Positions 28,946 through 49,031 of a stretch of DNA of 64,000 bases are shown in pieces (within the stretch, counting starts at the first letter, position 1; every line of letters begins with the position of its first letter). Made by a program: the position numbers and the translations under genes. Source of the DNA: Sedimentibacter sp. MB35-C1 (lineage in GTDB: Bacteria; Bacillota; Clostridia; Tissierellales; Sedimentibacteraceae); assembly GCF_030913635.1 (NCBI RefSeq), contig NZ_CP133188.1, positions 3,472,001-3,536,000 on the forward strand, written 5' to 3'. The notes below the pieces were generated by a model. The model did not search any database. It saw only the letters and a program-made list of their open reading frames with translations, and was not told where the DNA came from.

Positions 28946-30835
28946 TTAAAAAATGTTATTTTTATACTCTATATATAAGGCTCGTATTTCAGTCATTTTT
29001 TCATTCATTTGTTTCTGAAGATCTGAAGAGGAATCATAATCGCCCTCGTTCAATGCATTCTTTATCTTAGTAAAAATACACTTTTTCGACATACTATCCT
29101 TCATAAGCTTTGTTTTTAAATAAACTATTCTTTCCCAGTTTACAACATCAAGGTCAGTTGCATGGTCGTGTTCGTTATGAAGCTTTACAAATGTTTTTAA
29201 GAGCATTATATTATCGTGAATTATTCTACCTCTAAGCTCATTTTTCCACTTCTGGAGAGTAGACTCTTTAAATGAATTAATTAACTCATCTGTAAATACA
29301 TCTCCTGATTTCAATACCTGCTCTTTGAGACTGTTTGATTTAAAACCGCTTAAATTCTCCCATACTGTAGCAGGAGCAGTTCCATAAAGCTTGTTGCGTT
29401 CTTCTTCTGTGTACTTTTCAAATACGTCTTTTTCGCTCCTATACTCTCTGAATTTTTCGAGGTATACCGCATCTTCTCCGTATTTTTTGGAAATTTCTTT
29501 TTCCAGTTCTTCGCAGCTTAATCCTGCATCTGTAACTTTAATTATTCCGTCCAGCATAGCTTGATAAGCTGCAGCAATTACAAGATACGTATTGGTATAT
29601 GGATTCGGCGAACGCAGTTCAAATCTTATAGCTCCAGGATTGTTTATATCTCTTATGACACCAACGAGTACGGATCTGTTTCTTGACGGTTGCTCTTTAG
29701 TTCCGCCTAATGAGGTTACTATGCACACAGGCGCTTCAAATCCAGGTTTCAACCTGTTAAAAGCATCATTTGTAGCAGTTACTATAGGATTGATTACTTC
29801 ATAATTTTTCAATACACCCATTAATGAACCGTAGCCTATTTCGCTCAGATAATCTTTTCTGATATCCTTCGGTGCAAACAGGTTTATTCTTTTCCCGCTC
29901 TTTAGCTTAACCGCAACACCAAGGTGCGTATGCTCCCCGTTTCCGGCAACGCCTTCTATGGGTTTTGCCTTAAACAAAACTTCTAAACCATGGTGTCTGA
30001 ATTGATCTTCAATCAACTCTCTTATAAATATTTCATTGTCAGCAGTCTGCAGAGATTCCGAAAATCTCCAATCTATTTCCAGCTGCTCCATAACATGGGT
30101 AATTCTTCCCTTTGCATCAATCCTGTTTGGAATTCCACCCACTTCTTTATGAGCCATTTCAGGTTTTAAATCGTAGCGCTCAAGCATTTCCATTATTTTT
30201 TCAATCACTGTCCTCACAGTGCCCATGGTTCTTTTCCAGTATTGTTCTTTCAGCACCTGTGATGTATGAAGCTCTTCAAAATCAGCGCTTTGCTCAGGCG
30301 TCTTAACCCACATTTCAAGCTCAGTGGCTGACGTCAAAAGCACATCTTCGATATCTTCATATTCAAATCCAAAACTTTCGGGAATTCTTGAATTTTTCTT
30401 TAATACTTCCAATATTTGAGTTTTAAAATAATTTGTTGCTCTTTTCAAAATTGATCTGGAGCAAACCTGTTTTCCGCCGTGTATTATAAAAGAAGGAATC
30501 TTTAAAGTCCCTACCGGAAGCCCGTTTTCATCATTGTAATGTTCATAATTGTAATCAACAAACCAGTTACAGTCCAAGTCAGGCAGTATGTCAACTCTTG
30601 CATCATTTAAATCTGCGATACCCTGAAGCTCAACGCTTGATCCGTCTGTCTGAATTCCAAATTTCAGCATTTCCTTCATATCTTTTATGAAAAGCTTAAC
30701 AGGTATTTTCTCATCTGTTCCGTTGCCGCCTATATCAACGCCCATAAACGACACAAACTGTATTTCCGGATGCTCTTCAAGTACTTTTGTGAGTTCCGGT
30801 ATTTCATGATTTTCGGGCTTAATTATATAAATCAT
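28946..30835 (-). CDS. Glutamine synthetase family protein, long form (629 aa)
   Basis: A glutamine synthetase homologue that is longer than GSI (about 445) and shorter than GSIII (about 700). The N-terminal beta-grasp has GIQTDGSSVELQGI (about 80-93). The catalytic domain has ELEMWV, NGEHTHLGVAV (ATP/ammonia region), FNRLKPGFEAPVCIV (flap region) and RFELRSPNPYTNTYLVIAAAYQAMLDGI. A charged helical extension of about 120 residues follows (about 505-629). Key motifs are kept, so it is likely active as an ATP-dependent amide ligase, but the substrate (glutamate or another) is uncertain. It is monocistronic with its own promoter. Unlike the two other GS operons in the window it has no attenuator leader. 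Confidence 0.8.
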   Translation of the reverse strand: MIYIIKPENHEIPELTKVLEEHPEIQFVSFMGVDIGGNGTDEKIPVKLFIKDMKEMLKFGIQTDGSSVELQGIADLNDARVDILPDLDCNWFVDYNYEHYNDENGLPVGTLKIPSFIIHGGKQVCSRSILKRATNYFKTQILEVLKKNSRIPESFGFEYEDIEDVLLTSATELEMWVKTPEQSADFEELHTSQVLKEQYWKRTMGTVRTVIEKIMEMLERYDLKPEMAHKEVGGIPNRIDAKGRITHVMEQLEIDWRFSESLQTADNEIFIRELIEDQFRHHGLEVLFKAKPIEGVAGNGEHTHLGVAVKLKSGKRINLFAPKDIRKDYLSEIGYGSLMGVLKNYEVINPIVTATNDAFNRLKPGFEAPVCIVTSLGGTKEQPSRNRSVLVGVIRDINNPGAIRFELRSPNPYTNTYLVIAAAYQAMLDGIIKVTDAGLSCEELEKEISKKYGEDAVYLEKFREYRSEKDVFEKYTEEERNKLYGTAPATVWENLSGFKSNSLKEQVLKSGDVFTDELINSFKESTLQKWKNELRGRIIHDNIMLLKTFVKLHNEHDHATDLDVVNWERIVYLKTKLMKDSMSKKCIFTKIKNALNEGDYDSSSDLQKQMNEKMTEIRALYIEYKNNIF

Positions 30836-33735: not shown

Positions 33736-35019
33736 TTATATTAGTTTTGAAATGTCATATAATGAGCTTAGCACAAGCCAATTTTGAGGGAAATATCTCA
33801 TGATATTCCAGTACCCTACTCCTTCAAAGCCATAATCCGAAAAAATATCCAGCTTGGATTCTATGCTTCTGGCATCTTCAAACCACACCTGATGCTGGTT
33901 CCCCTGATCATCGTAGTAAATAAAGTATGGAGCTTGAGATACTTCATTGTATTCTATGGGCGCCCCAACTTCATCAGCCAGCTCTACCGCCTGTACGTTT
34001 GAAATAGAATTCGCTTTTGAAACTCCCTGAACATAAGGCAGTTCAAAATCATAACCATAATTAGGAATTCCCATGTAAATTTTATCTCTTGGTATTTCAG
34101 TTACAGCATAATCTAAAACTTCTTTTACCTTGTTAACAGGTGAAACCGCCATTGCAGGCCCGTAAGTGTACCCCCATTCATATGTCATAAGCAGAGCTCT
34201 GTTGGATGCATCACCAAGGGCATGATAGTCATGAGCTTCATACAACAACCCTGGCTGGTCAGCTGAAGTTTTAGGTGCAAGCGCCGTCAATACAGTAAAT
34301 CCTTCCTCATTTAATCTGTCAGTCATTTTTTGAACAAATGCAACGAATTTATCTCTGTCTTCCGGCAATACATATTCAAAATCTATATCAAGCCCGTAAT
34401 ATCCTTTTTCCTTCATTGTATTTACTACATTTTCTATAAGGTTGTTCTGTATATTTTCGTCATTTAGTAATCTATGTGCAAGCTCATTACTGAATTTTCC
34501 TTCTTCTGTCAGTGTTGAAATCAACATCAGCGGCGCAACTCCAAAATCTCTCGCTATCCTTATAAGCTCTTCATCATCTATATCTATTAGATTTCCTTCA
34601 GGCGTTATGCCGTAAGTGAAAAGCGTTAAATACGTTAAATACGGAAGAGTTTTCATAAGAACTGTTCTGTCAATGTTGGGATATGCATATCCTATGACAT
34701 GAATAGGCCCTCTCTTTTCCTGATCAAGACTTATTATTATCTGTTCCCCCGGAAATATATCATCGGCATACATAATCTGAGGATTGTACTGCAATAAATT
34801 TATAACCGATATGCCATATCTTTGAGCAATATTTTCTAAGGTATCTCCCGGCTGCACCGTATGAACCTGGTCAGGAACGAGTATTACTATTGTCTGCCCT
34901 ACCACCAGCTCATTAGGATTGGCAAGTTCATTGTAAGCAATTATTTGTTGAGGCGTAGTGTTGTATTGTTCTGCAATACTATATATGGTATCACCTGGCT
35001 TTACTACATGAATTATCAT
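33736..35019 (-). CDS. LysM-GH18 spore cortex-lytic/peptidoglycan hydrolase (SleL/YaaH-like)
   Basis: A 427-residue protein with two N-terminal LysM domains: MIIHVVKPGDTIYSIAEQYNTTPQQIIAYN (2-45) and VHTVQPGDTLENIAQRYGISVINLLQYN (about 52-95). A family 18 glycosidase barrel follows, with the catalytic DxxDxDxE-type motif in GYYGLDIDFEYVL (about 210-222), LMTYEWGYTYGPAMAV and YMGIPNYGYDFELPY. This layout is that of B. subtilis YaaH and B. anthracis SleL, which are N-acetylglucosaminidases acting on spore cortex fragments. No signal peptide is seen, as is usual for spore coat-associated members. AAGGGGAG precedes the ATG. The gene supports a spore-forming host. Confidence 0.9.
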   Translation of the reverse strand: MIIHVVKPGDTIYSIAEQYNTTPQQIIAYNELANPNELVVGQTIVILVPDQVHTVQPGDTLENIAQRYGISVINLLQYNPQIMYADDIFPGEQIIISLDQEKRGPIHVIGYAYPNIDRTVLMKTLPYLTYLTLFTYGITPEGNLIDIDDEELIRIARDFGVAPLMLISTLTEEGKFSNELAHRLLNDENIQNNLIENVVNTMKEKGYYGLDIDFEYVLPEDRDKFVAFVQKMTDRLNEEGFTVLTALAPKTSADQPGLLYEAHDYHALGDASNRALLMTYEWGYTYGPAMAVSPVNKVKEVLDYAVTEIPRDKIYMGIPNYGYDFELPYVQGVSKANSISNVQAVELADEVGAPIEYNEVSQAPYFIYYDDQGNQHQVWFEDARSIESKLDIFSDYGFEGVGYWNIMRYFPQNWLVLSSLYDISKLI

Positions 35020-35185
35020 AATTTCTCCCCTTTCTTTTCTTTCATTAGTATATGCACAAAAAAAACAATTGTTAAAATTTCAGCATCATTGGCAAACACA
35101 AAATAATCTTAATATCTTTCATATTGATAGTAAGAATACTTTACTTTGTAATCCTAGTTTTATTTAGAGAAAAGAATTTATTGGT

Positions 35186-35223
35186 AAAAAAATGACATGT
35201 GCAATGATTTCTCATCACACATG
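35186..35223 (-). terminator. Terminator of glnN
   Basis: An imperfect hairpin (CATGTGTGATGA with TCATTGCACATG, GAAA loop) is followed by ATTTTTTT on the minus strand, 35 bp after the stop. Confidence 0.8.
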
Positions 35224-35257
35224 CCTTATATAGATCCTATTTAGGAGGATAGGCTTA

Positions 35258-37348
35258 TTAAACGCTGAATAAAAGCTCTCCGTAGGTTGGGAATGGCCAG
35301 TATTTTTTTGCAGTATTTGTCTCAAGTTCATCCACAATCACTCTCACTTCCTGCATAGCTGCAAATATGTGCCTCCTGGTGAAGTCTGCGCATTCATTCG
35401 AATTATCCAGATTTTTAATATCTATAAGCTTATTTTCAAGCAATTCTATCTTATTGTACAGCGAACGCATCAGCAAAGATAATTTTAGCACCAGAGCTTT
35501 TTCTGTTTCGCAATCTACATCTATTAAAAATACTTTTTTAGAGTTTGCAGTATCGCTCAATTCCTTAATATATAAATTAACTGCCGGTATTATATATTTC
35601 TTTACTATATCTATTAATGTAAGAGCCTCAATACATATTTCCTTACAATATTCGTCAAGCACTATCTCAGTTCTTGAATATATCTCCTTCTTTGATAGTA
35701 TTTTAAATTTCTCAAACAATTTAACATTTTTATCTGATGTAAAATACGGCAGGCTTTCAGGTGTTGATTTCAGATTGAGCAGCCCTCTTTTTTTCGCTTC
35801 CTCAACCCATTCATCCGTATAGTTGTTTCCGTTAAATATAATCCTCTTATGTGCCTTTATGGTATTCTTCAAAAGAATATTTAACGCTTCATTAAAATCA
35901 TCCGCCTTTTCAAGAACATCAGCAAACTGAGACAATACCTCTGCAACTATAGTATTCAAAACCATATTTGGTCCTGCTATAGAAAGTTTCGATCCTACCA
36001 TTCTAAATTCAAATTTGTTCCCTGTGAAGGCAAAAGGAGATGTTCTGTTTCGATCTGTGGTATCCATAGGAAATACCGGTATCGCATCCACACCTACAGC
36101 CATTTCCCTTTTGTATTCCTTATCATATACCACACCGCCTTCTATTGATTCGAGCACTGAAGTCAGTTCATCTCCTAAAAATATAGATATAATTGCCGGA
36201 GGAGCTTCATTTCCGCCAAGCCTGTGATCATTTCCGGCAGTGGAAACAGATACTTTAAGCAAGTCCTGATAATCATCTACTGCTTTGATAACAGAGCACA
36301 GGAATAGTAAAAACCTTGCATTCTCTCTCGGTGAGTTTCCCGGCTCAAGCAAATTTATGCCTTCATTTGTGGAAACAGACCAGTTATTGTGCTTACCGCT
36401 TCCGTTTATGCCGGCAAAGGGTTTTTCATGCAAAAGACATGTAAGTCCGTGTTTCGAAGCAATCTTCTTCATTAATTCCATAGTCATCTGATTATGGTCG
36501 CACGCAATATTTGTATTCGTAAATATTGGAGCAAGCTCATGCTGCGCAGGTGCAACCTCATTGTGCTCTGTTTTGGCCAATATCCCCAACTTCCACAATT
36601 CTTCATTCAAATCCTTCATATACTCCGCTACTCTAGGTCTTATTGTTCCAAAATAGTGGTCTTCCAATTCCTGCCCTTTTGGCGGTTTTGCCCCAAACAA
36701 TGTCCTTCCTGTATAAACTAAATCTCTTCTTTTGTTGAATAATTCCGTATCAATTAAAAAATATTCCTGCTCAGGCCCGACTGTTGTAATGATTCTCTTT
36801 GTATCCTTGTCTCCGAATAATCTCAGTATTCTGAGCGCCTGAACATTTAATGCTTCCATTGACCTTAGCAGCGGCGTTTTTTTATCAAGAACTTCCCCTC
36901 CATATGAACAAAATGCTGTTGGAATGCATAACACCGAATCTTTAATAAACGCAAATGAAGTTGGGTCCCAAGCAGTATATCCCCTTGCTTCAAATGTTGA
37001 ACGAAGTCCTCCAGACGGAAAACTGGATGCATCCGGCTCGCCTTTTATCAGCTCTTTTCCTGAAAACTCCATTATTACCTTTCCGTCAGACGTTGCGGAA
37101 ATAAAACTGTCGTGTTTTTCTGCAGTAATTCCTGTCATTGGCTGGAACCAGTGTGTAAAATGGGTAGCTCCTTTCTCTACGGCCCAGTCTTTCATTGCGT
37201 TTGCCACAACATTTGCAACATTTAAGTCCAGGCTGCTGCCATTCTGAATTGTTTCTTTGAGTGCTTTATATATTTCCTTCGGTAATCTTTCCTTCATTAC
37301 TTCATCATTAAATACCATACTTCCAAAAATCTCTGATATATAGCTCAT
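35258..37348 (-). CDS. glnN: Glutamine synthetase type III
   Basis: GSIII makes glutamine from glutamate, ammonium and ATP. The 696-residue length and the motifs [15 protein letters not shown] (about 55-69), [62 protein letters not shown] and [18 protein letters not shown] are specific to the GSIII family. AGGAGG lies before the ATG. Transcription starts from a consensus promoter about 70 bp upstream, through an attenuator leader that shares its hexaloop hairpin with the divergent glutamate synthase operon. The ANTAR protein at 42459 is the likely regulator. A terminator follows. Confidence 0.95.
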
Positions 37349-37365
37349 AATTTCCTCCCGAAAAG

Positions 37366-37407
37366 CAAAAAGACGCCGTAGGAATAGTCCTACAGCGCCT
37401 TTGCTGT
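37366..37407 (-). promoter_or_regulatory. glnN attenuator: AAAGGC-hexaloop hairpin overlapping a terminator
   Basis: On the minus strand ACAGC-(AAAGGC)-GCTGT forms a 5-bp hairpin with a hexaloop (37392-37407). The alternative fold is a 15-bp stem with two G-U pairs, AAAGGCGCTGTAGGA with TCCTACGGCGTCTTT and a 4-nt loop (37369-37402), ending in TTTTT: an intrinsic terminator upstream of the start codon. The two folds share bases and exclude each other. The loop has A at 1 and G at 4, as in ANTAR-target hairpins. The hairpin starts about 8 nt from the predicted transcript start, so there is no room for a second (P1) hairpin. Confidence 0.75.
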
Positions 37408-37421
37408 TTTATTATGTATGC

Positions 37422-37450
37422 ATTATATACATCCCTAAAATATTTGTCAA
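37422..37450 (-). promoter_or_regulatory. glnN promoter
   Basis: On the minus strand TTGACA (37445-37450) and TATAAT (37422-37427) are 17 bp apart: perfect consensus. Such a strong promoter fits regulation after initiation, by attenuation. Confidence 0.88.
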
Positions 37451-37552
37451 TAACTTTTCAAAAAAATATTAATATATTTATAAAAAAGTTAATATCTGTA
37501 ATAAAAATTCCTACACTACTCTAATAATTGCATCTAAATATATAAAAAAAAC

Positions 37553-37581
37553 TTGACATTTAATATCAATTAGATTATAAT
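37553..37581 (+). promoter_or_regulatory. Glutamate synthase operon promoter
   Basis: TTGACA (37553-37558) and TATAAT (37576-37581) are 17 bp apart: perfect consensus. It is divergent from the glnN promoter, about 100 bp away. Transcription should begin near 37588, giving a leader of about 110 nt. Confidence 0.88.
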
Positions 37582-37601
37582 TCCAACAATACAAATATCC
37601 G

Positions 37602-37680
37602 CCGCAGGCGAACCTTGTATTTGATATGAAGATGAACAAAGGCGTTCATTATAACCATTAGTTATAATGCGCCTTTTTTT
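37602..37680 (+). promoter_or_regulatory. Glutamate synthase operon attenuator with AAAGGC-hexaloop hairpin
   Basis: The leader first offers a CGCC/GGCG triloop hairpin (37602-37612 region). Next, ATGAAC-(AAAGGC)-GTTCAT forms a perfect 6-bp hairpin with a hexaloop (37632-37649). The competing fold is a terminator: left arm 37638-37655 starting AAAGGCG, loop CATTA, right arm GTTATAATGCGCC, then seven T (37661-37680), with a 2-nt bulge. The two folds share 37638-37649. The hexaloop is identical to that before glnN while the stem sequence differs and stays paired, which is good evidence of a conserved RNA signal. An ANTAR protein is encoded at the operon's end. Confidence 0.78.
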
Positions 37681-37698
37681 ATACTCAGGAGGGACATT

Positions 37699-38793
37699 AT
37701 GAAAAAAGAAGGCCAGATCAGAATCCCTTCCGGTTGTGCTATATCCGGAATATTCTCTAAAGACAACAGAAAAATTAATGGCGAAACAATTATTAAATCA
37801 ATTTCTACTATGCATGATCGTTCCAACGGACTTGGAGGCGGATTCGCCGGATACGGAATTTATCCTCAGTACAAGGAACTTTATGCTTTTCATGTCTTTT
37901 ATGAAAATATAGCATCAAAAAAAGAATGTGAGGACTTTCTCGAAAATCACTTTGATATAGAAAACCTCTCTAAAATACCTATAAGAAAAACTTCTTCCAT
38001 AACCGATGAACCGCTTATATGGCGGTATTTCTTATATCCAAGGCACTCTAAATTAGCGGACTCTCAGTTGGATGAAAAAGAATTTACCGCACGCTGTGTA
38101 ATAAGGATTAATTCCGACATTAACGGAGCTTATGTGTTTTCCAGCGGAAAAAACATGGGTGTTTTCAAGGCTGTTGGCTTTCCTGAAGATGTAGGATATT
38201 TCTACAGGCTTGAAGAATATGATGGCTACTGCTGGACTTCACACGGCAGATATCCAACAAACACTCCCGGTTGGTGGGGAGGAGCACATCCTTTTGCACT
38301 GCTTGATTTTTCTGTTGTTCACAACGGAGAAATTTCATCATACGACACAAACCGAAGGTTTATGGAGATGTTTGGTTATAAATGCACTCTGTTAACCGAC
38401 ACAGAAGTAATCACATATATAATCGACTATCTTGTCAGAAACCAGGGCCTTACGCTAACTGAAACGGCAAATGTTATAGCTGCGCCATTCTGGTCAACAA
38501 TAGAAATGAAAAACTCGAATGAAAAAGCTAAGCTGAAATATTTGAGAAATGCATTCAGCAGCCTTTTGATTACCGGACCATTTTCAATACTTCTCGGATT
38601 TGAAAACGGCATTATGGCGCTTAATGACAGACTCAAACTTCGCTCAATGGTAGTAGCAGAAAAAAATGATATGTTTTATGCAGCCAGCGAAGAATGTGCT
38701 ATAAGAATCATTGAGCAAAATCCAGATAAAATTTGGTCGCCTGCAGGCGGAGAGCCTGTTATTGCAACGTTAAAGGAAGGTGCATCAAAATGA
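37699..38793 (+). CDS. Glutamate synthase-type glutamine amidotransferase subunit (GltB N-terminal domain/GlxB-like)
   Basis: A 364-residue class II amidotransferase that would release ammonia from glutamine. Motifs: SGCAISGIF (the presumed nucleophile Cys13, exposed only if the first 12 residues are removed), GLGGGFAGYGIYP, SHGRYPTNTPGWWGGAHPF (about 191-209), VHNGEISSYDTNRRF and LTDTEVITYIIDYL. It is the stand-alone equivalent of the N-terminal domain of large glutamate synthase. AGGAGGG precedes the ATG. Its stop overlaps the start of the FMN subunit gene (ATGA). The same three-subunit plus GlnA-like set occurs in N-methylglutamate synthase of methylotrophs, so a different amine substrate cannot be excluded. 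Confidence 0.85.
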   Translation: MKKEGQIRIPSGCAISGIFSKDNRKINGETIIKSISTMHDRSNGLGGGFAGYGIYPQYKELYAFHVFYENIASKKECEDFLENHFDIENLSKIPIRKTSSITDEPLIWRYFLYPRHSKLADSQLDEKEFTARCVIRINSDINGAYVFSSGKNMGVFKAVGFPEDVGYFYRLEEYDGYCWTSHGRYPTNTPGWWGGAHPFALLDFSVVHNGEISSYDTNRRFMEMFGYKCTLLTDTEVITYIIDYLVRNQGLTLTETANVIAAPFWSTIEMKNSNEKAKLKYLRNAFSSLLITGPFSILLGFENGIMALNDRLKLRSMVVAEKNDMFYAASEECAIRIIEQNPDKIWSPAGGEPVIATLKEGASK

Positions 38794-40295
38794 AAACAAA
38801 TTTATTCTACCCTGATTATGAAATCATAAGAGATGATAACAAATGCATAAGCTGTAAAATCTGCATAAACCAGTGTTCAAATGATGTGCACGTATATAAC
38901 GAAAAACTAAATAAAATAACCGCTGACAACAGAAAATGCGTAAACTGTCACAGATGTGTCGCCACGTGTCCTGTCACAGCATTAAAAATAGTGAAAACTG
39001 ATCATGCGTTCAAAATTAACAACAACTGGAACGAAACTGCAATTGAAGAAATATATAAGCAAGCTGAAAGCGGTGGTGTACTGTTATCTTCTATGGGAAC
39101 TCCGAGCAAATACCCTGTTTATTGGGATAAGATCTTAATAAATGCTTCACAAGTAACAAATCCTTCAATAGATTCACTTAGAGAACCGATGGAAACAAAA
39201 GTTTTTCTTGGTAAAAAACCGGATAAAATATTGAGAGATAAAAACGGAAACATAAAAACAGATATGGAACCTCAGCTTGAACTTTCTGTTCCCATACTAT
39301 TTAGTGCAATGTCCTACGGTTCCATAAGCTACAATGCCCATGAATGTCTTGCAAGGGCATCTGAAAAATTAGGAATACTTTATAACACAGGCGAAGGAGG
39401 TCTTCATAAAAATCTATACAAATACGGCGGCAATACAATTGTGCAGGTTGCCTCCGGGCGTTTTGGAGTTCATAAAGAATACCTTGAAATCGGAGCCGCC
39501 ATAGAAATTAAAATGGGTCAGGGAGCAAAACCCGGTATAGGCGGACATCTGCCCGGTTCCAAAATAGTGGGTGATATTTCAAATACAAGAATGATACCGG
39601 AAGGAAATGCCGCCATATCGCCAGCGCCGCACCATGACATTTATTCTATAGAAGATTTAAGACAATTAATCTATTCTTTAAAGGAAGCAACTGATTATAA
39701 AAAACCAATTATAGTAAAGGTAGCTGCAGTTCACAACATATCTGCTATTGCAAGCGGTATCGCCCGCTCAGGTGCAGATATTATTGCAATAGACGGCTTC
39801 AGGGGAGGAACGGGAGCTGCCCCCACAAGAATAAGGGATAATGTGGGGATACCAATTGAACTTGCACTGGCATGCGTGGATCAGAGACTCAGAGAGGAAG
39901 GAATACGCGGAAATATTTCAATTTTGGCAAGCGGAAGCATTCGAAACAGCTCTGATATTGTAAAGGCAATTGCCCTTGGAGCAGATGCTGTATATGCAGC
40001 CACAGCTCCTATGATAGCAATGGGGTGCCACGTATGCAGAAGCTGTCATTTAGGAAACTGTAACTGGGGTATAGCCACACAGAACCCGGAGCTTGTTAAA
40101 AGACTTGATATAGATGAAGGCAGTCAAAGACTTTATAATTTAATTTCTGCATGGAAAAGTGAAATAAAAGAAATGATGGGCGGAATGGGAATAAATTCAA
40201 TTGAAGCCCTCAAGGGCAACCGCCTTATGCTAAGAGGAATAGGTTTAAACGAAAAAGAATTAGAAATATTAGGAATAAAACACGCCGGAGAATAA
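38790..40295 (+). CDS. Glutamate synthase FMN/Fe-S catalytic subunit (GltB domain 2/GlxD-like)
   Basis: A 501-residue flavoprotein that would convert 2-oxoglutarate and ammonia to glutamate. The N-terminal ferredoxin-like part has two 4Fe-4S motifs: CISCKICINQC (about 16-26) and CVNCHRCVATCP (about 50-61). The FMN-binding barrel has PILFSAMSYGSISYNAHE, NTGEGGLHKNLYKYG, KMGQGAKPGIGGHLPG, GADIIAIDGFRGGTGAAPT and the late Fe-S segment CHVCRSCHLGNCNWGIAT. I place the start at 38790, where ATG overlaps the upstream TGA. The built-in ferredoxin domain suggests reduced ferredoxin or a partner flavoprotein as electron donor; no small GltD subunit is present here. Confidence 0.92.
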   Translation: MKTNLFYPDYEIIRDDNKCISCKICINQCSNDVHVYNEKLNKITADNRKCVNCHRCVATCPVTALKIVKTDHAFKINNNWNETAIEEIYKQAESGGVLLSSMGTPSKYPVYWDKILINASQVTNPSIDSLREPMETKVFLGKKPDKILRDKNGNIKTDMEPQLELSVPILFSAMSYGSISYNAHECLARASEKLGILYNTGEGGLHKNLYKYGGNTIVQVASGRFGVHKEYLEIGAAIEIKMGQGAKPGIGGHLPGSKIVGDISNTRMIPEGNAAISPAPHHDIYSIEDLRQLIYSLKEATDYKKPIIVKVAAVHNISAIASGIARSGADIIAIDGFRGGTGAAPTRIRDNVGIPIELALACVDQRLREEGIRGNISILASGSIRNSSDIVKAIALGADAVYAATAPMIAMGCHVCRSCHLGNCNWGIATQNPELVKRLDIDEGSQRLYNLISAWKSEIKEMMGGMGINSIEALKGNRLMLRGIGLNEKELEILGIKHAGE

Positions 40296-40307
40296 AGGAG
40301 ACCAACT

Positions 40308-41030
40308 ATGATTATTAATGCTGAAAAACTCAATTTTAAGGATTTAAACAATATCATAAAGCATTCAGATGACAAGACTATTAATATAACGGACTGTATA
40401 GGTCAAAGATACATTGCAAGCGGCTTATCCGAAAAAAATATTTTTATAAAAGGAACTCCGGGAAATGCACTTGGTTCATACTTGAACGGTTCTAATATAA
40501 CCGTACTTGCAAATGTTCAGGATGCTGTCGGCGACACAATGAACGAAGGTAAAATATATGTTCACGGTTCAAGCGGAGATGCCGCAGGGTATGCCATGAG
40601 AGGAGGTAAAATATTTATAAAAGGCAATGCAGGCTACAGAACCGGCATTCATATGAAATCATACCGTGATAAGCTGCCTGTCATTGTAATAGGAGGATCA
40701 GCAGGCAGCTTTCTCGGTGAATATCAAGCAGGTGGAATTATTATTGTTCTCGGCATTAATTCCGATTATGACCCTCCGGTTGGATATTTTTGCGCTGCCG
40801 GAATGTACGGAGGAAAAATATACTTGAGATGCAATAACCCTCCCAAGGATATTCCATCTCAAATCAACGCACACATTGCAGATAAGAATGACCTTAGAGA
40901 AATAGAAAGCTATATCGATGAATTCTGCGTTGAGTTTAATTTTAATAAAGATAAAATTTTTTCTCATAACTTTTATGTGCTTACTCCAAATGCTCAAAAT
41001 CAATATAAACAGCTTTATATCGACAATTAA
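40308..41030 (+). CDS. Glutamate synthase GXGXG-domain subunit (GltB domain 3/GlxC-like)
   Basis: A 240-residue protein made of the right-handed beta-helix seen at the C-terminus of large glutamate synthase. Repeating Gly-rich turns are visible: GTPGNALGSYLNGSNITVLANVQDAVGDTMNEGKIYVHG-type sequence at about 45-85, then GDAAGYAMRGGKIFIKGNAGYRTGIHMKS and GGSAGSFLGEYQAGGIIIVLG. The domain holds the other parts together and helps channel ammonia. AGGAG precedes the ATG, 12 bp after the FMN subunit gene. It completes the split enzyme together with the two genes before it. Confidence 0.92.
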   Translation: MIINAEKLNFKDLNNIIKHSDDKTINITDCIGQRYIASGLSEKNIFIKGTPGNALGSYLNGSNITVLANVQDAVGDTMNEGKIYVHGSSGDAAGYAMRGGKIFIKGNAGYRTGIHMKSYRDKLPVIVIGGSAGSFLGEYQAGGIIIVLGINSDYDPPVGYFCAAGMYGGKIYLRCNNPPKDIPSQINAHIADKNDLREIESYIDEFCVEFNFNKDKIFSHNFYVLTPNAQNQYKQLYIDN

Positions 41031-41069
41031 ATATTGTATAATAATAAAAAGTTATTCGGAGGTGAACCA

Positions 41070-42401
41070 ATGAAATATACAATGGATGAGGTCTTACAAT
41101 TTATTGATGACAATGATGTTAAATTTGTTCGATTGTCTTTTTGCGATATATTTGGAACTGTAAAGAATATATCTATATTATCTGAAGAACTGCCGAGAGC
41201 ATTTGAAAGCGGAATTTCATTTGATGCTTCTTCCATAAGAGGCTTTCTGAATGTGGAGGAATCTGATCTTTTTCTGTATCCAGATCCTTCAACATTGTCT
41301 ATATTGCCTTGGAGGCCGCAACAGGGAAGAGTAGTCAGGTTTTACTGCAACATAAAATATCAGGACGGAACACCTTTTGAAGGCGACGGAAGAGAAATAC
41401 TTCAAAGAGCTGTTGATGTTGCGAAGAAACAAGGATATCGTGTAGAAATAGGACCGGAATGTGAATTTTATTTATTTGAAGAAGATGAAAAGGGATACCC
41501 CACAAAAATACCTCATGATAATGCGGCATATTTTGATCTTGCTCCTCTTGACAAAGGTGAAAATGTTCGAAGAGACATAAGTCTGACTTTAGAGCAGATG
41601 GGAATACACCCTGAATGTTCTCATCACGAGCAGGGCCCTGGACAAAATGAAATTGATTTTAAATACAGCGATGCCATGTCTGCGGCAGACAATCTCGTAA
41701 CATTCAAATCGGTGGTTAAGACAATAGCGCATCTAAACGGGCTGTACGCATCCTTCATGCCCAAGCCGCTTAAAAATTACAGTGGAAGCGGCCTTCATAT
41801 TAATATTTCATTGCTTAAAAATAACAATAATTTGTTTGACAATTTATTTGATGATGGACAAAACATTATGTCCGATGAGGCAGAAAGCTTTATAGCCGGT
41901 ATTTTGAATAGGATAAGAGAAATCACCGCATTTTTGAACCCTCTCACTAATTCCTACAGCCGTTTGGGAAGCTATTCTGCACCGAGATTTGTAACATGGT
42001 CATATCAGAACAGGTCACAGCTTATAAGAATACCGGCAGCAGACGGCATATATTCGAGAATGGAACTTCGTTCATCAGATCCCAGCTGCAACCCTTACTA
42101 TGCATTTTCCCTGCTGATATATGCGGGACTGGAAGGAATCAATGAAAATATGAAACTAAAACCTCCGTCAAACATTAATTTGTTTGAGGCGGGTGACGAA
42201 ACGCTGAAAAACTATGAAACAATTCCGGAATCTTTGGAGAAAGCAATAGAATGTGCAATGAACAGCCAGTTTATCGCAAGATGTATACCTAAAAGAACTC
42301 TCGGGAAATATATTGCTGCAAAATTAGAAGAGTGCAAGCAGCATGAAATGGCAGAAAACAAAGATGATTTCGAGCATGTTACTTATTTTTATAAAATATG
42401 A
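41070..42401 (+). CDS. glnA: Glutamine synthetase type I
   Basis: A 443-residue GSI. Motifs: VRLSFCDIFGTVKNI (about 18-32), GISFDASSIRGF (about 49-60), GPECEFYLF, HHEQGPGQNEIDFKY, NYSGSGLHINISL (ATP region), NSYSRLGSYSAPRFVTWSYQNRSQLIRIP and ELRSSDPSCNPYYAFSLLIYAGLEGI. Length and lack of an adenylylation-type region match the Gram-positive GSI-alpha form, which is usually feedback-inhibited. The start at 41070 has GGAGGTG upstream. The gene is fourth in the glutamate synthase operon and so falls under the same attenuator; the ANTAR gene follows 57 bp later. Product glutamine feeds the synthase encoded before it. Confidence 0.95.
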   Translation: MKYTMDEVLQFIDDNDVKFVRLSFCDIFGTVKNISILSEELPRAFESGISFDASSIRGFLNVEESDLFLYPDPSTLSILPWRPQQGRVVRFYCNIKYQDGTPFEGDGREILQRAVDVAKKQGYRVEIGPECEFYLFEEDEKGYPTKIPHDNAAYFDLAPLDKGENVRRDISLTLEQMGIHPECSHHEQGPGQNEIDFKYSDAMSAADNLVTFKSVVKTIAHLNGLYASFMPKPLKNYSGSGLHINISLLKNNNNLFDNLFDDGQNIMSDEAESFIAGILNRIREITAFLNPLTNSYSRLGSYSAPRFVTWSYQNRSQLIRIPAADGIYSRMELRSSDPSCNPYYAFSLLIYAGLEGINENMKLKPPSNINLFEAGDETLKNYETIPESLEKAIECAMNSQFIARCIPKRTLGKYIAAKLEECKQHEMAENKDDFEHVTYFYKI

Positions 42402-42458
42402 CGCCGGAAATAAAGATGCACCTGACTTTGCTTAAATAATACGAGAGGTGGTGATTTC

Positions 42459-43028
42459 ATGGATAGTGCACTTATTGTATGCGGCTCTGATAAAGGAATC
42501 CAAGTCATATCAAAGCTGATGAATGACAATGCAAAAACACAGACATCTTCTGCTAAAAGCAGCTCCGAGGCAAGGCGTTTAATAAATGATTCAGACTATG
42601 ACATTATTGTTATTAATGCTCCTCTTCCCGATGAATTCGGTGATAATCTTGCAGTCACTATTACTGAAATCAGTTCATCTGGGGTTATATTGATTGTTAA
42701 CAACGAAATGGTTGATGATATATCGGCAAAGGTTGAAAATTATGGAGTTCTTATCATTGCAAAACCTATTATAAGACAGGTTTTTACGCAGACTCAGAAA
42801 TTTGCACTGGCATCTAATAGACGAATAATGGGGCTGAAAAGCGAAAATATTTCCTTACAGCAGAAAATAGAAGAAATACGTATTGTGACAAGAGCCAAGT
42901 GTGTGCTCATTCAATATTTAAACATGACAGAAAGCCAGGCACACCGGTATATAGAAAAGCAGGCCATGGACATGAGAACATCCAGACAGGTAATAGCCCA
43001 AAATATATTAAAAACATATGAATCATGA
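42459..43028 (+). CDS. ANTAR-domain antitermination regulator with pseudo-receiver
   Basis: A 189-residue regulator: receiver-like domain (1-120), coiled-coil linker (about 128-140) and ANTAR domain (about 135-188). The ANTAR part shows IRIVTRAKCVLIQYLNMTESQAHRYIEKQAMDMRTSRQVIAQNIL, with the conserved aromatic and Ala residues of the family, which binds paired hexaloop RNA hairpins to prevent termination. In the receiver, the expected phospho-acceptor Asp is Asn53 (DIIVINAPLPDE), although the Lys in AKP remains, so classical phosphorylation is unlikely. It resembles NitR-type proteins encoded beside glnA in clostridia. It is last in the nitrogen operon, and two leaders in the window carry candidate target hairpins. 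Confidence 0.92.
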   Translation: MDSALIVCGSDKGIQVISKLMNDNAKTQTSSAKSSSEARRLINDSDYDIIVINAPLPDEFGDNLAVTITEISSSGVILIVNNEMVDDISAKVENYGVLIIAKPIIRQVFTQTQKFALASNRRIMGLKSENISLQQKIEEIRIVTRAKCVLIQYLNMTESQAHRYIEKQAMDMRTSRQVIAQNILKTYES

Positions 43029-43251
43029 ACTATTTCAGCATAAAACGAGCTGCCAGTACCAGGACTTGCCAGCCAAAATGATGATACATTACCATACTGC
43101 TTTACGTTAAAAAAATTAACCCCAGTAAGTAGTATAGAAAATACTATTACCCACAGTATTGTTGGCGAAGAAGGTTTCCTATATCTGCATATAAAATTAT
43201 ACCGTCTTTATCTATGATAATAATATCTTTATAATTATTCTTATTACGCAT
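43029..43251 (-). pseudogene. Possible remnant of a sigma-54-type regulator
   Basis: On the minus strand, an ATG at 43251 with AAAGGA 8 nt upstream opens a 34-codon frame (to 43147). It reads like the start of a PAS sensor domain (DIIIIDKDGIILYADIGN). Further along, in a different frame (about 43029-43095), the sequence reads SPGTGSSFYAEIVH, which resembles a decayed GESGTGK-type Walker A motif of sigma-54 activators. Together they suggest a broken and internally deleted regulator gene. Similarity is by eye and weak, so this may equally be non-coding. It fills most of the 400-bp gap between the ANTAR gene and the microprotein. Confidence 0.35.
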
Positions 43252-43369
43252 GGCGATTTTCCTTTATAACGTTTTCTACTTACTGTATATTATAAAGAAT
43301 TATAACATCATAAATATTATCCTTCAATATATTAACCGCGGCCATTTTTATAATCCTCAAATAAAAATC

Positions 43370-43404
43370 AGATGCTGCAGCAAATAAAATTACTGCAGCA
43401 TCTT
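43370..43404 (-). terminator. Terminator after Pro/Cys microprotein gene
   Basis: 10-bp perfect arms (GATGCTGCAG / CTGCAGCATC) with a 12-14 nt loop are followed by T-rich sequence on both strands; it lies about 25 bp after the small ORF's stop. Confidence 0.75.
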
Positions 43405-43427
43405 ACTTTATTTTACACTAAAAAAAT

Positions 43428-43553
43428 CTAGCATCTCCTGTTTCGGCAGCCGCATTTCGGCGGTGGTGGCGGAGGTGGTGGAGGAGGACAGCTGCACCTT
43501 CCGAAACCGTATCCGAGCAATAGCCAGGGTATTATTCTACATAGCATATTCAT
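43428..43553 (-). CDS. Pro/Cys-rich microprotein (41 aa)
   Basis: A small ORF of 41 codons. It encodes a hydrophobic, Trp-containing N-terminus (CRIIPWLLLGYGFG), then CSC, a run of nine prolines, and KCGC ending in a basic, Cys-containing tail. AAGGA precedes two possible ATG codons (43553 and 43547); spacing favours the second. A strong terminator follows, which supports a real transcription unit. The composition (Cys-X-Cys pairs around a polyproline rod) suggests a membrane-inserted or metal-binding peptide. I do not know the function; similar small proteins may exist in Clostridia. Confidence 0.6.
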   Translation of the reverse strand: MNMLCRIIPWLLLGYGFGRCSCPPPPPPPPPPKCGCRNRRC

Positions 43554-43658
43554 CAATCCTTTTTTTATGCTTACAATATACTATTCTTGTCCTGACAGTA
43601 AGTTACAGAAAATCCGACACTCCTTTAAATATTTTTTACACTGCTAAAAAACCCGGTA

Positions 43659-45083
43659 TTACTTGTATTTGTCGTTTATTATCTGTTTAACCAGTTCTTT
43701 GGCCAGAACAGCATCTGCCCTGCCCTTAGTTTCTCTCATAATGTATCCCATTATTGCACCTATGGCTTTTTCTTTGCCATCCAAATACTGAATCGCCGCT
43801 TTTTCGTTCGATTCAATAGCTTTTTCGCATATACTCCTGAGAGCATCCTCATCTATACCTTCCATATCCTTTTCAGTAATAAATGATTTCGCAGGCTTTC
43901 CTGTATCAAGCATTTGCTCCAATACATTTCTGGCCATACTTGAGTTTATCTTTTTCTTTTCTGTTAAAATAACAAGCTCGTTTAAAAATTCAGGAGGAAT
44001 AGGAATATTGCATTCTTCCTTCTCGGTATCCGTTGAAAGACGCCTGAATATGCTTCCCAACATATAATTAGCCGTTATCTTTTTGTTTTCCACATTATCT
44101 GAAGCTTTCTCAAAATATTCAGCTACTTTTTTATATTTAGTTAACAGTTCGGCATCATCCTGTGACAAGCCCATTTCATCAATGAACCGTGCCAGCTTTT
44201 CTCCCGGAAGCTCCGGAAGGCTTTCTTTATATTTTTGTATTTCTTCATCCAAAATGGATATGGTAACCAAATCCGGGTCCCTAAAATATCTGTAATCATC
44301 AGCATCTTCCTTGCCGCGCATGCTTTCCGTAATATTTAAATCGGAGTTGTATCTCCTTGTTTCCTGTTCTATTTCTCCTCCGCTTTCCAATATGTCAATC
44401 TGCCTGTTAAACTCATATTCCATTGCCTTTGAAATAAAGTTCAGTGAATTCATATTTTTAATTTCAGTCCTGGTTCCGAATTTTTCATCACCTTTTTTCC
44501 TCACTGAAATATTTACATCGCACCTTAGAGAACCTTCCTGCATTTTTACATCCGACACACCTATATACTTCATTGTGAGTCTGAGCTTTTCTATATATTC
44601 AATCGCTTCTTCAATGCTCCTTATGTCAGGCTCCGATACTATTTCTATCAGCGGAACTCCTCCTCTGTTGTAGTCGACGTATACATCTCCACGTTCATGC
44701 ACAAGCTTACCTGCATCCTCCTCTATATGGATACGGGTAATATTGATGTTTTTTCCTGATGACAATGTTATGAATCCTTGCTCGCAAAGCGGCTTGTCAT
44801 ACTGGGATATCTGATATGCCTTAGGAAGGTCCGGATATACATAATTCTTGCGGTCCATCTTTGAAATTTTTCTTATTTTGCAGTTTGTGGCTAGTCCGGC
44901 CTTAACTGCATATTCAACTACTGCCTTGTTCAGCTTCGGAAGTGTCCCCGGTAGCCCTATGCACACAGGGCAGCAATGGGTATTCGGCTCTCCGCCAAAC
45001 TCTGTTGTACACTGGCAAAATATTTTTGTCTTAGTTGAAAGCTCTACATGAGTTTCAAGTCCTGCAACCATTTCCCAACTCAT
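43659..45083 (-). CDS. gatB: Asp/Glu-tRNA amidotransferase subunit B
   Basis: GatB binds misacylated Asp-tRNA(Asn) or Glu-tRNA(Gln) and phosphorylates the acyl group for amidation. The 474-residue protein has the N-terminal catalytic cradle with GLETHVELSTKTKIFCQC (about 9-26), PNTHCCPVCIGLPGTLP (zinc-site Cys), KMDRKNYVYPDLPKAYQISQYD and RCDVNISV. The C-terminal YqeY-like tail domain ends in MGYIMRETKGRADAVLAKELVKQII. Its start overlaps the gatA stop (ATGA). It is the last gene of the T-box controlled aspS-gatCAB operon. Confidence 0.96.
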   Translation of the reverse strand: MSWEMVAGLETHVELSTKTKIFCQCTTEFGGEPNTHCCPVCIGLPGTLPKLNKAVVEYAVKAGLATNCKIRKISKMDRKNYVYPDLPKAYQISQYDKPLCEQGFITLSSGKNINITRIHIEEDAGKLVHERGDVYVDYNRGGVPLIEIVSEPDIRSIEEAIEYIEKLRLTMKYIGVSDVKMQEGSLRCDVNISVRKKGDEKFGTRTEIKNMNSLNFISKAMEYEFNRQIDILESGGEIEQETRRYNSDLNITESMRGKEDADDYRYFRDPDLVTISILDEEIQKYKESLPELPGEKLARFIDEMGLSQDDAELLTKYKKVAEYFEKASDNVENKKITANYMLGSIFRRLSTDTEKEECNIPIPPEFLNELVILTEKKKINSSMARNVLEQMLDTGKPAKSFITEKDMEGIDEDALRSICEKAIESNEKAAIQYLDGKEKAIGAIMGYIMRETKGRADAVLAKELVKQIINDKYK

Positions 45084-46549
45084 ATTATCTCACCTCCGTT
45101 GCAATGTTTATATATTTCTCCGTTCATCTGCTGCTCATACTGATATGCCGCATTTAATATTTTCGCATCCTCAAAGCTGTCAGCTATTAGCTGCATTCCT
45201 ATTGGAAGCCCCTTATCATCAAAGCCGCATGGTATGGACAATGCCGGCAGGCCGGCTATGTTAGCCGAAACAGTGCAAATATCTGTCAAATATGTTTCAA
45301 TGGGATCCTTTGACGTAAAATTCAATTCAAATGCAGTCGTAGGAACTGTGGGGGCAAGCAACACATCACATGATTCAAATGCACTTTTGAACGCTCTGAT
45401 TATTGAGCCCCTTAATTTCTGCGCTTTCTTGTAGTAAGCATCATAATACCCTGCGCTGAGCACATAAGTTCCCAGCATAATACGTCTCTGTACTTCTTTG
45501 CCAAAGCCTTCACTTCTCGTTTTGCATATCATGTCGTTAACATCACTGTACAACTCAGACTTATAGCCATAGCGTATTCCGTCATATCTTCCCAAGTTTG
45601 ATGATGCTTCTGCACATGCTATTATATAGTAAACCGGAAGCACGTTCTTGATTTGCGGCATATTGAAATATACAATTTCAGCTCCTAAATCTTCATATAC
45701 CTTTATTGCTTTTTCAATAGATTTTTTTATATCTTCTCTTATTCCATCAAAAAATTCCTTTGCTACTCCTATTTTCATGCCCTTTATGCTTCTATCCAAT
45801 TTGTCGGAAGTCTTTGACCTTGACCCCCTGGATGTTGCATCATTGCTGTCATAAACAGATATTGAATCATAAATACAAGCCGCATCCTCAACACATGAAG
45901 CTATGGGGCCTATCTGATCCAGACTTGATGCGTAAGCTATGAGACCATATCTTGAAACAGTTCCGTAGGTAGGCTTTAGTCCCACTAGCCCGCAGAAGCT
46001 TGCAGGCTGCCTAACAGAGCCGCCAGTATCAGAACCAAGCCCGTACACTGCAATATTTCCTGCCACAGATGAGGCCGCTCCTCCTGAACTTCCGCCGGCC
46101 ACGTGCCTCGTATCATGAGGGTTCAGAGCACCCCCGAAGCATGACGTCTCACATGACGAGCCCATGGCAAACTCATCCATGTTTGTTTTCCCCAGCAATA
46201 CAGCATTTTGGTTTTTTAATATATTCCATACCGTTGCATCATAAATGGGAACATATCCTTTCAAAATGTTGGAGCCGCATGTTGTCTCAATACCATTTGT
46301 CGATATATTATCCTTCAACGACATAGGTATTCCTTCCAAAGGCATCAGGCTCTCTCCCCTTGCTATTTTTTCATCAACTTTCTTTGCGGTTTGTAATGCT
46401 TCTTCGCCTGTAATCCTTATATAGGCATTCAGAACTTTATTTTCCTCTTCTATTCTGTCTAAGTATTCCGACGTTAACTCAGTGCATGATACCTGCTTTG
46501 TTTCAAAAAGCTTTTTTATATGTTTAATTTTACTGAATGTTCTTTCCAT
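45080..46549 (-). CDS. gatA: Asp/Glu-tRNA amidotransferase subunit A
   Basis: GatA is the glutaminase of the GatCAB complex and supplies ammonia. The 489-residue protein carries the amidase signature Ser-cisSer-Lys triad: the Lys in GIPMSLKDNIS (about 75), and the Ser pair in HVAGGSSGGAASSVA and GLGSDTGGSVRQPASFCGLVGLKPTYG (about 140-180). The ATG at 46549 has GGGAGG upstream; the open frame continues further up without a ribosome site. It lies between gatC and gatB, overlapping gatB by 4 bp. Confidence 0.96.
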   Translation of the reverse strand: MERTFSKIKHIKKLFETKQVSCTELTSEYLDRIEEENKVLNAYIRITGEEALQTAKKVDEKIARGESLMPLEGIPMSLKDNISTNGIETTCGSNILKGYVPIYDATVWNILKNQNAVLLGKTNMDEFAMGSSCETSCFGGALNPHDTRHVAGGSSGGAASSVAGNIAVYGLGSDTGGSVRQPASFCGLVGLKPTYGTVSRYGLIAYASSLDQIGPIASCVEDAACIYDSISVYDSNDATSRGSRSKTSDKLDRSIKGMKIGVAKEFFDGIREDIKKSIEKAIKVYEDLGAEIVYFNMPQIKNVLPVYYIIACAEASSNLGRYDGIRYGYKSELYSDVNDMICKTRSEGFGKEVQRRIMLGTYVLSAGYYDAYYKKAQKLRGSIIRAFKSAFESCDVLLAPTVPTTAFELNFTSKDPIETYLTDICTVSANIAGLPALSIPCGFDDKGLPIGMQLIADSFEDAKILNAAYQYEQQMNGEIYKHCNGGEII

Positions 46550-48754: not shown

Positions 48755-49031
48755 CAAAAACTCCTTCATCCCAAAGGGACGAAGGAGTATATCATTCGCG
48801 GTACCACCCTAATTAGCATATACTTGCGTACAAGCTCACTCGAAAGACACTAACATGTCTTTGCCGCTTTAACGCTCGGATGCGTTTGAGCCTACTCTTG
48901 CATATGCAATTTGGGTCAAAAGCTCAAGGATGTTCTTCATTTAAAACCATTGTGATAGACTCTCACCGACGCTATCTCTCTGTAACCTAAGTTCTAAATT
49001 ACTCTTCCTGTCATCGCCTGATATTTGTTTT
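48755..49031 (-). promoter_or_regulatory. T-box leader of aspS-gatCAB operon, specifier GAAC (Glu/Asn)
   Basis: On the minus strand this leader holds the T-box signature AGGGTGGTACCGCG (48797-48810) that pairs with the 3' end of uncharged tRNA. A terminator hairpin with CTCCTTCGTCCC / GGGATGAAGGAG arms and TTTTT follows (48755-48787). The stem I region (about 48920-49020) has the AGAGAGA bulge and GGTGAGAG. The specifier region reads ATGAAGAACATCC: AAC (Asn; 48932-48934) is followed by the conserved A, and the overlapping GAA (Glu) is one base earlier. The same overlap is known from the C. acetobutylicum transamidation operon. Uncharged tRNA would switch on the operon. Confidence 0.9.

Follow-up and report, generated by a model that had tools for sequence, protein, structure and literature searches.

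The two divergent leaders that separate glnN from the glutamate synthase-glnA-ANTAR operon of Sedimentibacter sp. MB35-C1 are probably both transcription attenuators of a single-hexaloop type, controlled by the ANTAR protein that the operon encodes. This reading draws on the anatomy and competing folds of the leaders, on conservation with covariation in relatives, on a linkage with the ANTAR gene and on the finding that candidates for a second hairpin (P1) do not rise above chance; from these we infer that the ANTAR protein binds the hexaloop. The stretch analyzed, here called the window, comprises 64,000 nucleotides of a 3.62 Mb genome assembled as a single contig, and the nearest named relatives of its glutamate synthase (glt) gene belong to Sedimentibacter.

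Anatomy of the two leaders

The two leaders fill the 350 bp (37349-37698) between glnN on the minus strand, which is the first gene downstream of the minus leader, and the glt-glnA-ANTAR operon on the plus strand. The features are as follows:

35258-37348, minus strand: glnN, type III glutamine synthetase (Pfam GSIII_N 279 bits, Gln-synt_C-ter, Gln-synt_C)
37369-37402, minus strand: intrinsic terminator of the glnN leader (15-pair stem and T-run by scan; minimum-energy fold)
37392-37407, minus strand: hexaloop hairpin of the glnN leader, ACAGC-AAAGGC-GCTGT, overlapping the 5' arm of the terminator
37422-37450, minus strand: glnN promoter, TTGACA-17-TATAAT, 12/12 match
37553-37581, plus strand: glt operon promoter, TTGACA-17-TATAAT, 12/12 match
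37588-37621, plus strand: extra 5' stem, AATACAA..CGCC-GCA-GGCG..TTGTATT, no hexaloop (folds)
37631-37650, plus strand: hexaloop hairpin of the glt leader, ATGAAC-AAAGGC-GTTCAT at 37632-37649, with a 7-pair stem, overlapping the terminator
37638-37680, plus strand: intrinsic terminator of the glt leader, with T-run (minimum-energy fold)
37699-38793, plus strand: glutamate synthase, class-II glutamine amidotransferase subunit (GATase_2)
38790-40295, plus strand: glutamate synthase, ferredoxin-type plus FMN-binding subunit (Glu_synthase 472 bits, Fer4 matches)
40308-41030, plus strand: glutamate synthase GXGXG subunit (GXGXG 108 bits)
41070-42401, plus strand: glnA, type I glutamine synthetase (Gln-synt_C 348 bits)
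42459-43028, plus strand: ANTAR regulator with pseudo-receiver domain, NitR-like (ANTAR 54.5 bits)

The first-pass annotation had given each leader a perfect promoter, a strong terminator before the first gene and an AAAGGC hairpin overlapping the 5' arm of that terminator, and all three were recovered. The two promoters are the only 12/12 matches within 35000-46000. The minus-strand terminator was found by a simple scan and in the minimum-energy fold, that of the glt leader in the fold and not by the scan, and both hairpins are evident in the sequence, each terminator taking in the loop and the 3' arm of its hairpin. As had also been stated, A at loop position 1 and G at position 4 agree with the ANTAR-target rule in both loops, and the regulator gene lies in the same island, where it closes the glt-glnA operon as the sole ANTAR gene of the genome. 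The extra 5' stem at 37588-37621 had not been mentioned.

Both leaders are more stable than all of the 200 shuffles made of each (z of -3.75 and -5.45). The isolated hairpins reach -4.3 and -5.4 kcal/mol and the terminators -15.9 (glt stem) and -22.7 kcal/mol, so that the hairpin should lose unless it is held. A chance origin of the hairpins was rejected, since none of 3000 dinucleotide shuffles of 37349-37698 gave a qualifying hairpin on both strands (34 gave one on a single strand) and since 40 leaders of the class sample described below carry the motif against 1.46 expected. Known RNA families were likewise discarded as an account of the region, where a permissive Rfam search returned five matches, all under their gathering scores; at the gathering threshold, the whole window yielded only a T-box and a tRNA. 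The T-box leader (48772-49023, minus strand, 125 bits) is followed by genes that resemble, by sequence likeness only, those for aspartyl-tRNA synthetase and gatCAB-like proteins. The window GlnA scores 417 bits against the GlnA equivalog model, slightly below its cut-off of 429. A third glutamine-synthetase-like ORF of 629 aa occupies 28946-30835 (Gln-synt_C 129 bits), with no match to the model R1 described below immediately upstream of it at E up to 10.

Conservation in relatives and the second hairpin

A collection of species genomes was scanned once with the first glt protein, which gave 45 loci on which the window proteins were mapped. In 34 of the 45, glnN and glt diverge, and glnA lies directly upstream of the ANTAR gene in all 31 loci with an ANTAR match; the other 14 have no such match, in some owing to a contig end. 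In several of these loci (L069, L072 and L080 among them), though not in the window, about 1.7 kb separates the FMN and GXGXG genes, probably one extra gene. The hairpin is conserved upstream of the orthologous operons: it was found in 44 of 46 glt leaders, the window included, when loop position 1 was allowed to be A or G (41 of 46 with A only), and in 36 of 41 glnN leaders taken from those same loci and the genus. The two glt leaders outside this count are L078, with no match, and L085, whose sole match lies far upstream and looks spurious. Loops with G at position 1 occur in L091, L092 and L108 (GACGGA, GAAGGT, GAGGAT, GTTGAC), with G4 kept. In L081 and L109, glnN lies on the same strand downstream of the ANTAR gene and yet has its own hexaloop leader.

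The stems vary in sequence and remain paired (ATGAGC/GTTCAT, ACAGC/GCTGT, AAAGGC/GTCTTT, GAGAC/GTCTC), as had been noted for the two in the window. To quantify this, 72 promoter-hairpin units were aligned, six of 78 candidates having been dropped beforehand as spacing outliers or near-duplicates; gaps fall mainly in the spacers. Paired cells amount to 88.6% against 69.4% after shuffling, double changes to 109 against 38.5, and the covariation score to 0.600, compared with 0.244 for shuffled and no more than 0.209 for slid controls, figures in which the inner five pairs are favored by selection because the units were chosen with at least five pairs. Counting against the reading, pairing at the two outer positions, which were not selected, is limited to 48 of 72 and 28 of 60 cells.

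In 122 distinct hairpins, loop position 2 is A in 114 and position 3 varies freely; position 1 is A in 110 and G in 12, and G stands at position 4, although the constancy of positions 1 and 4 and of the closing pair is uninformative because these were selection criteria. A T-rich arm complementary to the loop lies downstream in 115 of the 122. Position 3, when A or G, mostly has a pairing partner in the terminator, and a U there stands opposite a pairing base in just 11 of 24 distinct hairpins; position 3 thus covaries poorly with the terminator, which counts against the single-hexaloop ANTAR reading. Part of the identity of the two AAAGGC loops follows from their second pairing partner, the terminator GCCUUU; more can be learned from the paired arms on either side and from how well these are conserved elsewhere. 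This bears on a rival explanation, namely that the hairpin is a by-product of the terminator or a stabilizer of the 5' end, in attenuators that work constitutively and do not involve the ANTAR protein. A loop complementary to the terminator would be partly conserved regardless of any reader, and 5'-terminal hairpins can protect mRNA. The explanation is nevertheless unlikely given that the 5' arm covaries with the 3' arm, that loop position 3 is free while position 2 is nearly always A, and that the motif tracks the ANTAR gene.

The position of the hairpin relative to the promoter was followed in 104 leaders, that is, 128 hairpin leaders less 21 without a promoter of at least 9/12 within 75 nt and three without a T-run. 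The -10 box ends 6-18 nt before the base of a 5-bp stem in 92 of the 104 (30 of 34 glt leaders, all 29 glnN leaders and 33 of 41 in the class sample; these sets overlap slightly, as the same species may sit in both collections). Transcription usually starts about 7 nt after the -10 box, and this spacing should put the 5' end of the RNA at the hairpin, with no space for a P1 before it. In the window, the glnN leader has 14 nt from the -10 box to the hairpin, in line with the earlier remark that a second hairpin has no room there. The glt leader departs from the compact spacing, with about 50 nt between promoter and hairpin, as does that of the close relative L067 (by eye).

P1 was sought as an AxxGxx hexaloop upstream of 166 related hairpins, with a linker of 2-25 nt and a shuffled null. 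Candidates stand at chance level, 15 of 166 against 13.6 shuffled with at least three pairs and 6 against 5.6 with at least four, and exceed it somewhat under the eut closing-pair rule (6 of 166, where shuffles average 2.2 and range from 0 to 5). Of the 15 with at least three pairs, 12 begin before the predicted transcription start, and 4 of the 6 under the eut rule likewise. An earlier rule applied with no null had given 7 of 166 (at least four pairs) and 16 of 166 (at least three pairs) and was superseded by the uniform-linker rule; the candidate of G144 is found by that first rule and not by the later ones. The candidate of L080 is the attenuator hairpin itself, ahead of a spurious second match. 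Neither window leader has a P1 hexaloop at a linker of 2-25 nt and hence neither shows the dual arrangement, which bears out the observation that only one hairpin is clear in each. As a control, a near-identical rule with altered stem rules, run over 12-15 kb around six eut ANTAR genes, recovered dual hexaloops with linkers of 9-11 nt in four of the six loci; L279 and L280 have none and one of two matches in L282 looks weak. Earlier eut scans, upstream of eutP and within 3.4-kb loci, had found no dual hexaloops.

A second rival would make these leaders ordinary dual-hexaloop targets whose P1 is degenerate or differently shaped, for instance as the extra stem of the plus leader. Known ANTAR targets are dual in the accessible text of PMC3369931 and PMC8164766, the plus leader does have a second stem upstream, and the eut closing-pair rule gives the excess just mentioned; yet the -10 box mostly abuts the hairpin, the remaining P1 counts match the shuffles with most candidates starting too early, four of the six eut loci do reveal dual elements, and among relatives the extra stem occurs only in L067 (by eye). 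Dual targets of this kind are accordingly quite improbable here. The chance-level candidates and the promoters abutting the hairpin support an absence of P1 that is general among related leaders. Tandem pairs of complete hairpin-terminator units do occur in 14 of the 41 glnN leaders, where the upstream unit could therefore replace P1. Two tandem hexaloop hairpins before glnN were observed in L071, L076, L079, L080, L084, L086, L090, L092-L097, L101, L106 and L111, with three in L071 and L106, and in most a T-run follows each hairpin.

The ANTAR gene, its protein and its regulon

A search of related genomes with model R1, built from the 72 units, indicates that, both within the genus and across the class, the unit goes together with the ANTAR gene. 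R1 matches all ten ANTAR-bearing genomes of the genus, the present one included, and none of the 15 without this ANTAR protein (p = 3e-7), some of these assemblies being incomplete. This linkage is not independent of the target genes, because strong glnN and amtB matches in the genus occur only in ANTAR-bearing genomes. The wider class sample comprises 195 genomes, 107 with ANTAR and at least 125 with type III glutamine synthetase. From it, 120 glnN leaders (90 from 63 ANTAR-bearing genomes and 30 from 28 ANTAR-lacking ones) were hand-picked among the matches listed, mostly one genome per genus, and so cover a subset of the genomes with glnN. The motif precedes glnN in 39 of the 63 and 5 of the 28 genomes, and with the strict loop in 38 of 63 and 3 of 28 (p = 6.5e-6); by leaders, it is present in 40 of the 90 and 1.46 are expected by shuffling. 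Over all 195 genomes, R1 matches 53 of 107 with ANTAR and 8 of 88 without, a count biased by the inclusion of the genomes from which R1 was built (22 of the class sample plus the window, all ANTAR-bearing). The fair count is the held-out one with these 23 source genomes removed, 32 of 84 against 8 of 88 (p = 5e-6). Two observations count against a strict linkage: 24 of the 63 sampled ANTAR-bearing genomes have no motif before glnN, and R1 finds matches in those 8 of 88 genomes without ANTAR. G079 and G106, both among the exceptions, carry typical motifs, and the ANTAR gene may be missing from their assemblies.

In the present genome, R1 gives 51 bits to the glnN leader, which is one of its 72 rows, and scores the glt leader weakly (18.8 and 16.6 bits) because the promoter lies further away. 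A second site at 2338325-2338384 (minus strand) reaches 37.4 bits (E = 3e-4), and the remaining matches have E of 0.087 or more. The second site follows a methionine gamma-lyase-like gene and heads toward lexA on the opposite strand, with no sizeable ORF behind it; in a close relative (G015), the same leader sits before an arginine deiminase-family gene, and it therefore looks like a leftover after gene loss. It could alternatively be a small RNA that titrates the ANTAR protein. Within the genus, the unit precedes glnN in nine of the ten ANTAR-bearing genomes (eight and the present one) and amtB in five genomes, AmtB being found in 5 of 25 genus genomes, all ANTAR-bearing. Congeners also have it before glt or glnA and, in two, before a gene for an ABC binding protein (sequence likeness only); outside the genus, the gene behind it is amtB-like in G054 and glnA-like in G031. 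R1 matches judged false are those in L312, L327 (recA-like) and L330 (CIRCE-like, before an hrcA-like gene), names again being given by likeness.

The ANTAR protein scores 54.5 bits against PF03861, above the curated cut-off of 27.3, whereas its Response_reg match (27.4 bits) stays below the cut-off of 30.2. Its AlphaFold (AF2) model has a pLDDT of 92.3, with EutV and EutV-RNA as best fold matches (TM 0.82 to the RNA-bound chain), and it also matches AmiR (1qo0). The phospho-acceptor aspartate and the Tyr164 of EutV are both replaced. The first position is Asn53 in the window protein and Asn in at least 90% of 26 orthologues, the second is His162 and His in 26 of 26; Met172 of EutV is conserved. 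The eut ANTAR proteins have Asp in 6/6 and Tyr in 6/6, whereas ANTAR proteins other than eut have His in 55 of 56 (a few duplicates included), L112 having Tyr. In 40 further class genomes, 33 are of the His type, with or without the glnN motif. A rule pairing the single hexaloop with a His-type protein was rejected, as 17 of 20 genomes with the hexaloop and 16 of 20 without it are of this type; the histidine is thus a mark of lineage rather than proof of co-evolution with the RNA. Three Tyr-type genomes carry the motif: G119 and G161, each with one hexaloop, and G160, whose P1 candidate begins upstream of the predicted transcription start. Tyr164 stacks on loop G4 according to the accessible part of the EutV structural study (PMC8934654), and a histidine at that position could mean altered recognition, which counts against the single-hexaloop ANTAR reading. 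The pseudo-receiver speaks for control by a partner protein, as in AmiR-AmiC, rather than by a sensor kinase, and glutamine synthetase would be the obvious candidate partner by its position. The non-canonical receiver might also suggest another reader of the hairpin, such as a small-molecule riboswitch ligand or a different RNA-binding protein; this is very unlikely, considering that no aptamer is apparent (the glnN leader being a 16-nt hairpin and a terminator), that Rfam gives nothing above gathering score in the region, and that the published ANTAR loop rule fits.

Proposed mechanism and relation to known systems

In the proposed ANTAR-controlled attenuation, RNA polymerase would initiate at the hexaloop hairpin or a few nucleotides upstream of it, except in the glt leader of this strain, where the distance would be about 45 nt. 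The hairpin would form first, far weaker than the terminator that overlaps it, and by default the terminator would absorb its 3' arm and most of the loop, ending transcription. When nitrogen is limiting, the ANTAR protein of the same operon, with its pseudo-receiver, would bind the hexaloop and hold the hairpin shut, and polymerase would pass into glnN and into glt-glnA-ANTAR, in the latter case also with positive feedback. This direction of control is presumed, and nitrogen status is taken to be the signal by analogy with NitR. The ANTAR antitermination circuit proposed in the first-pass annotation is supported by a hairpin that is conserved, covaries, tracks the ANTAR gene and also stands before amtB. 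It may be speculated that a partner protein gates the pseudo-receiver, with the glutamine synthetase encoded immediately upstream as first candidate. A bolder and rather doubtful proposal is that these leaders represent a widespread and distinct class of antiterminator, in which promoter and hexaloop are fused, the hexaloop lies at the 5' end of the RNA, a single hexaloop is enough, and the reader is a His-type pseudo-receiver ANTAR protein gated by contact with glutamine synthetase without a sensor kinase. If this were true, an enzyme would pass nitrogen status directly to antitermination on the nascent RNA of its own genes.

In the accepted view, an ANTAR antiterminator requires both of its two hexaloops, and structural work asks why there are two. 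A large natural set with single hexaloops and a transcription start apparently at the hairpin base would make this question testable with RNAs of laboratory size. Additionally, some of the clostridial nitrogen regulon may have escaped the published searches, which relied on two hairpins, and the set points to a pseudo-receiver branch of ANTAR proteins with a different residue at a key RNA contact. A literature search, with most subscription journals outside its scope, turned up no description of natural single-hexaloop ANTAR attenuators; nor did it show either the lone hexaloop fused to a promoter or the His-type pseudo-receiver, although this kind of regulator and the genes it acts on are known in broad terms.

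ANTAR control of nitrogen genes, including those of glutamate and glutamine synthesis, was predicted by Ramesh et al. 2012 (PMC3369931, in its accessible text), and the present leaders resemble the dual-hexaloop targets of that report (eut, nasF, amiE) in a hexaloop with A1 and G4 and a conserved closing pair, in a hairpin that overlaps the 5' arm of an intrinsic terminator, and in the tie to ANTAR genes and nitrogen metabolism, glutamate and glutamine synthesis included. They differ in that the window leaders have a single hexaloop and the -10 box lies close to the hairpin in the glnN leader. The same source searched with two hairpins and, counting against the single-hexaloop reading, states that EutV needs both in vivo, with P1 and linker length essential, whereas P1 is not above chance in the related leaders here; the actinobacterial survey, as far as its accessible text goes, also required two hairpins (PMC8164766). 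The available part of the 2022 structural study of EutV from E. faecalis narrows the binding motif down to a single hexaloop but retains two for antitermination, which EutV achieves only with both, unlike what is proposed here (PMC8934654). The window protein has the same predicted fold as EutV, as judged from the modeled match to the RNA-bound chain, and differs from it in the residues at phospho-Asp54 and Tyr164, which are Asn and His.

Like AmiR of Pseudomonas aeruginosa, which is run by its partner AmiC and not by a kinase (PMC8934654, in the part available), the protein appears to combine a pseudo-receiver with ANTAR; unlike AmiR-AmiC, no AmiC-like gene is present among the island genes scanned, and the constant neighbor is glutamine synthetase. 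A further close system is NitR, which reportedly acts as an ANTAR antiterminator on the GS/GOGAT genes of Clostridium saccharobutylicum when nitrogen is limiting (PMC6316151, in its accessible text, citing Stutz et al., Microbiology 2007, 153, 3081-3090); the nitR antiterminator is also mentioned in the accessible part of PMC4676874. The window ANTAR gene lies beside glnA and the glt genes, a likeness to NitR that is one of gene order and description. The NitR gene presumably adjoins the GS/GOGAT genes in C. saccharobutylicum as well. The arrangement also recalls the ANTAR regulons of Desulfotomaculum, with several attenuators before glutamate synthase and other nitrogen genes (PMC3369931, Fig. 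9, in the portion accessible); those regulons were found with a dual-hairpin model, by which a single-hairpin class would be passed over, and the single-hexaloop design of the present leaders recurs across many Clostridia.
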